From Clostridia bacterium (lineage in GTDB: Bacteria; Bacillota; Clostridia; Oscillospirales; Acutalibacteraceae): a DNA stretch of 64,000 nucleotides. The stretch is from contig JAFQRA010000018.1 of NCBI GenBank assembly GCA_017410325.1, positions 1 through 64,000 of the forward strand, in the 5' to 3' direction. Positions within the stretch are counted from its first letter, which is position 1, and each line of letters opens with the position of its first letter. Under the pieces are notes generated by a model, which worked only from the letters and a program-made list of their open reading frames with translations, was not told the DNA's origin and searched no databases. Positions 53,202 to 53,754 of this stretch are shown here, piece after piece. Both the position numbers and the translations under genes were made by a program.

Positions 53202-53240
53202 CGGTGAGATAGTAAATCAAACTGTCTCACCGTTGTTTAT
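53202..53240 (+). terminator. Terminator of the bifurcating complex operon
   Basis: 12-bp hairpin with one wobble pair (53202-53213 and 53221-53232), loop of seven, then TTGTTTAT. Confidence 0.7.
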
Positions 53241-53250
53241 AGGTGTTTAT

Positions 53251-53754
53251 ATGGAATTGCCAAAGAGAAAACCCAATAGGCTAAAAAATTATAGCTATAG
53301 CTCTCCGGGAGCTTATTTTATTACTATATGTACCAATAATAAAGAGAAGTTGTTGGGCGATATAATCGTAGGGTTCGGCGCTTGCGACGAACCGAAAAAT
53401 ATTCTGTCAAAGTATGGCGTGATTGCTGAAAAGTATATTCATCTTATGAATGAAAAATATGAATATGTAAGTATTGATAAATTTATAATAATGCCTAACC
53501 ATATTCATATGATTATCGTGATTGAAGAAGAGGCTGTTAACGGTTCGTCGCAAGCGCCGAACCCTACAAATGATATATTACCAAAGTTTATATCACTATT
53601 TAAACGGTACTGTAATTTGGAATTTAAAAGGAATATCTGGCAAAAATCTTATCACGACCATATAATCAGAAATGATAAAGAGTATGAAGATATCTGCAAT
53701 TATATTGAATACAATGTTTATAAATGGTTGGATGATCGGTATTATTCTAAATAA
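53251..53754 (+). CDS. RAYT (REP-associated tyrosine transposase, Y1_Tnp)
   Basis: 167-aa IS200-like single-strand transposase of the RAYT type, AT-rich. Opening LPKRKPNRLKNYSYSSPGAYFITICT is the RAYT leader (given in pieces as PKRKPNRLKNYSYSSPGAYF), the metal-binding HUH motif is in MPNHIHMI (about residue 85), and the C-terminal helix NDKEYEDICNYIEYNVYKW carries the catalytic-type Tyr residues. The gene contains two copies, in opposite orientation, of a GTAGGG-headed palindromic half (53368-53394 and 53541-53567) that encode GFGACDEP and GSSQAPNP segments. There are no flanking insertion-sequence ends, so it is a domesticated, repeat-spreading type rather than a full element. Confidence 0.9.
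   Translation: MELPKRKPNRLKNYSYSSPGAYFITICTNNKEKLLGDIIVGFGACDEPKNILSKYGVIAEKYIHLMNEKYEYVSIDKFIIMPNHIHMIIVIEEEAVNGSSQAPNPTNDILPKFISLFKRYCNLEFKRNIWQKSYHDHIIRNDKEYEDICNYIEYNVYKWLDDRYYSK
53368..53394 (+). repeat. REP-like palindromic unit inside the RAYT gene (plus orientation)
   Basis: GTAG at 53368-53371 followed by GGTTCG, a 10-base loop GCGCTTGCGA and CGAACC, then G. Perfect reverse complement of 53541-53567. The same plan (GTAGGG, hexamer ending CG, GCG....CGA loop, hexamer) is seen in the unit at 1-19. Confidence 0.9.
53541..53567 (-). repeat. REP-like palindromic unit inside the RAYT gene (minus orientation)
   Basis: Perfect 27-base reverse complement of 53368-53394, ending in CCCTAC, i.e. 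GTAGGG on the minus strand. The two copies face each other 146 bases apart and stay in frame. Confidence 0.9.

Follow-up and report, generated by a model that had tools for sequence, protein, structure and literature searches.

Paired REP-like hairpins within the reading frame of a RAYT-like transposase gene from a Clostridia bacterium and its relatives

In the field it has yet to be explained how REPs spread and what keeps a RAYT matched to its REP. Both are raised by a gene of a Clostridia bacterium (contig JAFQRA010000018.1, assembly GCA_017410325.1), within whose reading frame two inverted REP units reside. Are these units a substrate of the encoded enzyme, or REPs which happened to enter its gene? 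In the former case gene and substrate would be inseparable, so that their co-evolution could be read from one gene. We studied the gene in a window of 64,000 bp, i.e., the whole stretch of DNA that was analysed, and compared it with its relatives.

The window gene and its two hairpin units

The original prediction of a RAYT-like gene at this locus is supported by the HuH motif, the tyrosine, the WQ residues (Table 1) and the family alignment. The only NCBIfam match of the protein was NF047646 (REP-associated tyrosine transposase), with 54.7 bits against a cut-off of 80, while Pfam Y1_Tnp scored 17.6 bits (cut-off 23). All 47 aligned members matched NF047646 at E≤0.001, and H84, H86 and Y151 were invariant in the 47 rows, the putative catalytic set thus consisting of HuH and a single tyrosine. 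The window protein displayed the fold of the E. coli TnpAREP. It shares NHIH, WQ and in-frame REPs with TnpAREP subclass 2.4, but the Y motif YIxNNP of this subclass was not found in the window gene (YIEYNV); the consensus of the 47 rows is YIDxNP. By its sequence the gene appears to be related to subclass 2.4, and we do not call it a member.

Table 1. Coordinates of the window gene, its hairpin units and associated features
Feature	Position	Strand	Remarks
RAYT/TnpAREP-like gene	53251..53754	+	167 aa, ATG to TAA
Slot 1 REP unit	53368..53394	+	encodes V40-P48; predicted loop between strands 36-39 and 49-52
Slot 1 unit, layout	GTAG 53368-53371; stem arms 53372-53377 and 53388-53393		
Slot 1 unit, interior	inner pairs 53379-53380/53385-53386; loop 53381-53384		
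Slot 2 REP unit, inverted	53541..53567	-	minus-strand GTAG 53564-53567; encodes about residues 97-106
HuH motif N83-H84-I85-H86	53497..53508	+	between the two units; (nearly) invariant across the 47 aligned rows
WQ of the presumed GTAG-reading stretch WQKSYHDHIIR	53638..53643	+	from the alignment
Y151, presumed catalytic tyrosine in Y-I-E-Y-N	53701..53703	+	invariant column; role presumed from the family
Stretch (514 bp) missing from the G005 site	53235..53748	+	boundaries placed by eye
Terminator-like hairpin after the upstream gene	53203..53231	+	3 bases before the left boundary of the 514-bp stretch; putative function
Composite elements	L149 745-950; L150 713-905; L151 817-1016; L152 717-921		

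The inverted repeat was confirmed as perfect: a repeat search gave two arms of 27 nt that are 100% complementary and spaced by 146 nt. Each arm folds into GTAG, followed by GGTTCG, one G.A mismatch, CG, the loop CTTG, CG and CGAACC. Of the hairpin originally described, the GTAG head, the six-pair stem and the 10-base loop stood, while two inner pairs within this loop had been overlooked. As single-stranded DNA one arm has a predicted folding energy of -8.2 kcal/mol. The GTAG tetranucleotides are situated at the feet of the hairpins and point outward, and the reading frame stays open through both arms, as had been proposed. The unit pattern (≤3 mismatches) matched the window four times versus 0.24 expected matches, the four being the two units, each on both strands. 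In 50 trials with the codon-shuffled window gene the best arm match was 21 instead of 27, and for all genes with a pair, the gene's own score was reached by three of 3000 codon shuffles. From the excess of the pattern and the codon shuffles we concluded that the inverted pair of the window is far beyond chance.

In the predicted structure of the window protein (mean pLDDT 81; residues 99-105 under 50), slot 1 (residues 40-48) forms a turn between two short strands and slot 2 a low-confidence loop just before a helix at residues 106-125. According to a profile alignment, both slots are short or absent in E. coli TnpAREP (4er8). Residues following slot 2 correspond in this alignment to the E. 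coli helix that bears K82, a residue named in PMC8266576 as touching the REP; the corresponding contact in the window protein is putative. The E. coli residues matching the WQKSYHDHIIR stretch are named in PMC6006769.

The original prediction expected the unit to recur elsewhere in the genome. For the exact 27-mer this did not hold, as no copy outside the window gene was detected in its own genome at ≤3 mismatches. Thus, the window gene itself shows no product of dispersal, and there was no further unit copy in its fetched flanks either. This absence does not refute the prediction, because the unit-class pattern (≤2 mismatches) gave 39 matches in the same genome (control 0), sister genomes G007 and G001 contain near-exact relatives of the unit, and other RAYTs carry units that are multi-copy in their own genomes. 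Two of the 39 matches lie in the window gene and two in the RAYT copy C32; most represent one variant. Altogether, the genome harbors five RAYT loci (the window gene, C38, C29, C11 and C32), of which C32 is frameshifted and split over two frames. The unit of the C29 copy gave 28 matches at ≤3 mismatches (control 0), often as REPINs with units about 46 nt apart. Exceptions to the multi-copy state are, e.g., L072 and L061, whose genomes contain four matches each, two of them being the gene's own. At ≤2 mismatches, the window unit occurred in three of 150 family genomes including its own. In G104, which belongs to another genus, it lies inside a RAYT gene whose slot 1 exhibits a paired change and the same CTTG loop and whose slot 2 contains a further variant; in G141 it is one half of a pair about 120 bp across, and no HuH frame was seen nearby. 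Counts of same-class units in 14 genomes were patchy and did not reveal strict own-genome specificity. G014, G018 and G021 hold unit types other than those of the gene that brought them into the study, and unit types are in general not strictly tied to the genome of the carrier gene.

Dispersed composite elements of about 200 bp were also observed (Table 1), in which an outer inverted pair of the window class encloses an inner inverted pair of another class. A partial composite is located at the contig edge within the window (positions 56-193), with a window-class unit at 168-193 and inner-class matches at 56-83 and 106-134, and several contigs of the genome end close to composite-type units. 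Same-class unit pairs spanning 167-180 nt were considered as RAYT remnants. This idea was rejected, as those that were read proved to be nested composites matching RAYT DNA only in the units.

Two slots across the family and the concerted change of their units

The window protein matched 8 of 11 genomes of the genus, its own included. With the best 80 of 130 loci from public genomes, the survey set comprised 109 loci with a tblastn match, among them the window gene and three genes listed twice (L005/L008, L024/L026 and L028/L029). By a lenient count, 69 of the 109 loci contained an inverted pair in the gene region, compared to 4 of 102 upstream stretches, and the four control pairs were REPIN-like. 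The remaining 40 loci include fragments, one-slot genes, other layouts, genes without units, and genes with a mutated GTAGG (L047, L054, L070). Measured from the gene start, slot 1 is found at about 100-135 nt and slot 2 at about 240-320 nt; the pair has an outer span of 158-257 nt (median 191). A slot analysis, which searched for inverted pairs only and was complemented by a unit scan of both strands, was possible with 89 loci (20 were dropped for want of anchors) and, after removal of one duplicate, covered 88 distinct genes. Slot 1 and slot 2 reached a complementarity score of 14 or more in 60 of them, but only in 4.8% of 7656 comparisons between genes. The summed score of these 60 genes was 1334 versus 575 ± 28 in 2000 permutations (maximum 679). 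Among all 60, the gene's own slot 2 was the best or tied-best match to slot 1 in only 33 cases, since relatives share unit types. The proposal that REPs had inserted into this particular gene after its domestication was not borne out; the pair is family-wide at two slots.

Relatives with one unit, without units or with units at other positions exist as well. In L006 (1463-1781), L020 and L022, the partner of the slot 2 unit lies immediately 5' of the start codon, and in L110 (2259-2411) and L111 (2259-2414) both units are located 3' of the HuH motif. In L078 and L079 (2261-2366 each), the slot 2 unit is followed after about 80 nt by a weaker one (4 mismatches) on the opposite strand, the GTAG ends facing each other. 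Two unit copies 39 nt apart were found in slot 2 of L047 (2285-2347) and L068 (2288-2350), with the frame being kept, and the translations of slot 2 of L080 and slot 1 of L093 look like longer arrays. Upstream of the L069 gene there are five direct-repeat units at 32 nt spacing (1520-1671). Homologues were rare on plasmids (4 of 72,556 records) and phages (1 of 50,697) at E 1e-5, and IMG/VR yielded three loci. An exact 24/24 pair was present in IMG/VR locus L211, on phage scaffold L217, and around a truncated gene on the Monoglobus plasmid L216. No pair was found in the Bacteroidota plasmid gene L215 or in IMG/VR loci L212 and L213, three of the four plasmid records being covered; Chloroflexota locus L214 contained units upstream only.

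The hairpins themselves are well kept. Paired stem cells amounted to 223/243 in slot 1 and 232/252 in slot 2 of the 26-nt units (shuffle maxima 191 and 198), to 126/128 and 135/136 of the 23-nt units (104 and 111), and to 32/32 and 39/40 of the 24-nt units (30 and 36). Between the two units of a gene, 20 stem differences were paired changes, six were one-sided through G.T, and 25 involved an unpaired state, three of 63 genes having been dropped from this count for unlike unit length. By manual reading, 12 of the 25 fell into the two innermost pairs, and three came from a misregistered unit of L067. The paired changes indicate that each hairpin is kept, rather than pairing from arm to arm. They bear on the suggestion that the arms form a long stem in the mRNA, which would limit translation or stability of the transposase message. 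Such a stem was indeed predicted by folding: the RNA of positions 53351-53590 gave -88.4 kcal/mol (z -9.4) with the arms paired. The arms are largely complementary in most genes, and the partner unit just before the start codon in L006, L020 and L022 would fit this function, too. However, the differences between the arms mostly preserve the hairpins, and the 20 paired changes break arm-to-arm pairing; moreover, the GTAG heads and the dispersed same-class REPs would be left unexplained. We consider a function in RNA quite unlikely.

The encoded peptides follow the units. Slot 1 encodes VGFGACDEP in the window gene and, for example, VGAIHESPE, VGADIIRPL or VGEGLCALP elsewhere. It is read in one frame in 61 of 63 genes, whereas all three frames are used for slot 2 (53, 9 and 1 genes). 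Selection might act on the peptides, the DNA symmetry being a by-product, and residues do recur, namely V-G at slot 1 and P-T at slot 2. But most other residues change with the unit; conservation of the segments at the protein level irrespective of the DNA, which would have counted against the original prediction, was not seen. As slot 2 also uses other frames in 10 of 63 genes and codon shuffles destroy the arm match, this explanation is hardly credible.

To relate the units to the transposase, a slot-free tree was computed (95 rows, 126 columns, many unresolved forks); L067, L048, L045 and L035 were removed before the tree and concerted-change tests. The 63 genes with a pair contained 51 different slot 1 bodies. 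Unit length class changed nine times on this tree compared to 23.3 times after shuffling (minimum 18, 200 shuffles). For 26- and 23-nt units the Mantel r was reached 9, 1, 0 and 0 times in 1000 permutations, while for 24-nt units (129 and 282 of 1000) the test fell short of significance. The two units of one gene differed on average by 2.2, 1.6 and 0.1 mismatches (26-, 23- and 24-nt units; 32, 18 and 8 genes), as opposed to 3.9, 4.2 and 2.9 mismatches between the slot 1 units of a gene and its nearest relative. Nevertheless, the relative's slot 1 was closer than the gene's own slot 2 in 10 of 32 genes with 26-nt units and in 2 of 18 with 23-nt units. Among the most similar genes (33 pairs at ≥60% identity), only 49 of 121 slot 1 differences were mirrored in slot 2, a number rising with distance to 1029/1563, 2279/3167 and 237/278, though these pair comparisons are not independent. 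The data indicate that the match within a gene is restored with a lag.

Could the two slots simply be neutral landing sites, i.e., permissive loops that repeatedly receive whichever REP is active, so that matching units reflect nothing but the recent insertion of one REP into both? The published interpretation of the in-frame REPs of subclass 2.4 (PMC6006769) is similar. Both slots are predicted loops that are short or absent in E. coli 4er8, and the double units in slot 2 of L047 and L068 and the array-like slots of L080 and L093 are as expected of such sites. On the other hand, the same two slots recur, slot 1 in one frame in 61 of 63 genes, and unit length class follows a transposase tree from which the slots were excluded. 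In addition, the hairpins are kept by paired changes instead of decaying, and the window pair is perfect even though its genome contains no other copy. Landing sites of this kind are, in our opinion, an unlikely explanation.

Probable movement of the gene and breakage of relatives at the units

In sister genome G005, both flanks of the window gene are present (83% and 81% identical) and adjoin each other to within 2 bp. The 514-bp stretch missing there runs from 16 bp 5' of the ATG to just before the last codon and the stop; the terminator-like hairpin preceding it is present at the empty site, too. Compared with G005, the boundaries showed no clear target duplication, and the units lie 133 and 181 bp inside the ends of the stretch. 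The corresponding loci of G004, G002, G010, G001 and G007 are without the gene, but also without the right flank. With an empty site from one sister genome, the comparison points either to an insertion at the window locus or to an exact loss in G005.

Several related pairs at different sites likewise have little more than the ORF in common, their similarity running roughly from the start codon to the stop. Examples are L076/L096 (92%, one genome), L074/L084 and L088/L092 (one genome each), L040/L055 and L084/L094, the ends being those of local alignments, which are rough for less alike pairs. By comparison, L013/L017, L045/L096, L049/L058 and L069/L078 share their flanks, as expected of genes at one old site. 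Beyond the last conserved residues, the C termini vary in length and sequence (72 rows), as would be expected if the target supplied the stop. Two further candidates for movement of the bare ORF were rejected: the second RAYT copy of L067 represents a common tandem duplication that extends into the flanks (681 of 683 bases identical), and L004 has only a left boundary (12 bp before the ATG) in an insertion of about 1.6 kb. Judged by these comparisons, the gene seems to have moved on the time scale of the genus as little more than its ORF.

Within the genus five structurally truncated RAYTs were noticed, in each of which the break coincides with a unit or lies no more than about 20 bp from one; the set is small, was examined after the idea had arisen, and leaves frameshifted copies and a contig-end copy aside. 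In L028, the G001 orthologue of L011, the stretch between the units was lost and one fused, double-footed unit remained, with the frame being open. In L031, half of a 5' unit is joined to sequence just beyond slot 2. Both units and the intervening stretch are missing from L030, as judged against relatives rather than an orthologue. The end of L032 directly follows slot 1, whereas slot 1 is where L027 starts; L027 and L031 have hybrid or half units. Such broken relatives may record past excisions. Yet, deletions between hairpins can arise by replication slippage without any enzyme, and excision by an enzyme and slippage at palindromes would leave similar scars. It is conceivable that palindromes within the gene are homogenised merely by template switching at replication, with no use by the transposase. 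The fusion in L028 and the hybrid or half units of L027 and L031 fit slippage at palindromes, but the GTAG heads, the tie between unit type and transposase tree, and the dispersed same-class copies would remain unexplained, and we give such passive copying a slim chance. A different event was observed in L007 (959-1572), which shares its locus and the first 60-70 nt of the RAYT gene with L013, L015 and L017, followed by a different body. The sequence is that of a replacement or conversion from slot 1 onward.

A probable coding REPIN and its relation to known systems

What can be read directly from the compared sequences are the two slots, the match within genes, hairpin covariation, the agreement of unit type and tree, dispersed REPs of the same class and breakage at the units. 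We consider it reasonably probable that the pair represents a coding REPIN, i.e., a cognate substrate which resides inside the gene of its enzyme, at two tolerated loops flanking the HuH motif, and co-evolves with it. The protein would bind each unit as single-stranded DNA, the GTAG by WQ...DH..R and the stem by the helix after slot 2, and would be able to nick its units. The doublet may be the seed of dispersed REPs or REPINs and may be carried along when the gene reaches new sites and hosts. Since both have to suit a single enzyme, the units would remain similar, to which copying from one unit to the other or from REPs elsewhere in the genome probably contributes. The suggestion that the gene may be a source or substrate of its own REP is supported in this respect, on sequence grounds. 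Concerning the assumption that RAYTs bind and cut REPs at GTAG, the binding is correct, whereas cleavage occurs at CT or CA sites in the systems discussed in PMC8266576.

A further reading goes beyond the coding REPIN and regards the gene as a self-referential mobile element, in which one stretch of DNA would be both the recognition hairpin and the code for two surface loops, the bare ORF being the mobile unit. One of the loops would adjoin the helix that reads the REP stem in E. coli TnpAREP. If true, each change of the REP would alter the reader too, explaining the joint change of unit type and protein. We regard this extension as quite unlikely.

Quentin et al. (2018, PMC6006769) described in-frame REPs inside tnpAREP genes as a property of subclass 2.4. 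Thus, in-frame REPs in RAYT genes have been known since 2018, and the basic fact is not new. The two-slot pair, the match within genes, the co-evolution with the protein and the ORF-sized insertion were not found in the literature covered, which did not extend to supplements such as Figure S10 of PMC6006769. The window gene resembles subclass 2.4 in its HuH/Y1 protein, N-H-I-H, WQ, in-frame GTAG REPs, the kept frame and a variable surface region. Subclass 2.4 corresponds to Bertels group 4, and according to the text of PMC6006769 its insertions generally lie between HuH and Y; here, by contrast, one unit precedes HuH and one follows it, the two are matched and inverted, and the Y motif is Y-I-E-Y-N-V and not YIxNNP. 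The same paper explains a "double foot" REP by a deletion between an inverted dimer, a form also seen in the scar of L028.

For REPINs, Bertels and Rainey (2011, PMC3116915) found reads in which doublets had been excised and noted paired changes in the hairpin, the elements described there being extragenic. The inverted REP doublet with a spacer and the paired changes across the hairpin are common to both, but the spacer of the window pair is coding sequence with the HuH motif, and the pair lies inside an ORF. In-frame REPs or RPEs have also been reported in other genes of Rickettsia and other bacteria (PMC3733652). They share with the window units that short palindromes are tolerated in frame, but are spread across unrelated genes, whereas matched pairs in the cognate transposase gene are found here.

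In IS200/IS605 elements such as IS608 and ISDra2, the hairpins lie close to the element ends, outside the tnpA frame. The units of the window gene, in contrast, are not subterminal.

A REPtron is a RAYT gene bordered by REPs (PMC8266576, PMC3733652). It likewise combines a transposase gene with cognate inverted REPs, which in the window gene are inside instead of at the borders. According to PMC8049555, RAYT genes are present in a single copy, are inherited vertically and do not duplicate themselves. The five RAYT loci in the genome of the window and the ORF-sized insertion within the genus are at odds with this view, at least in this clade.
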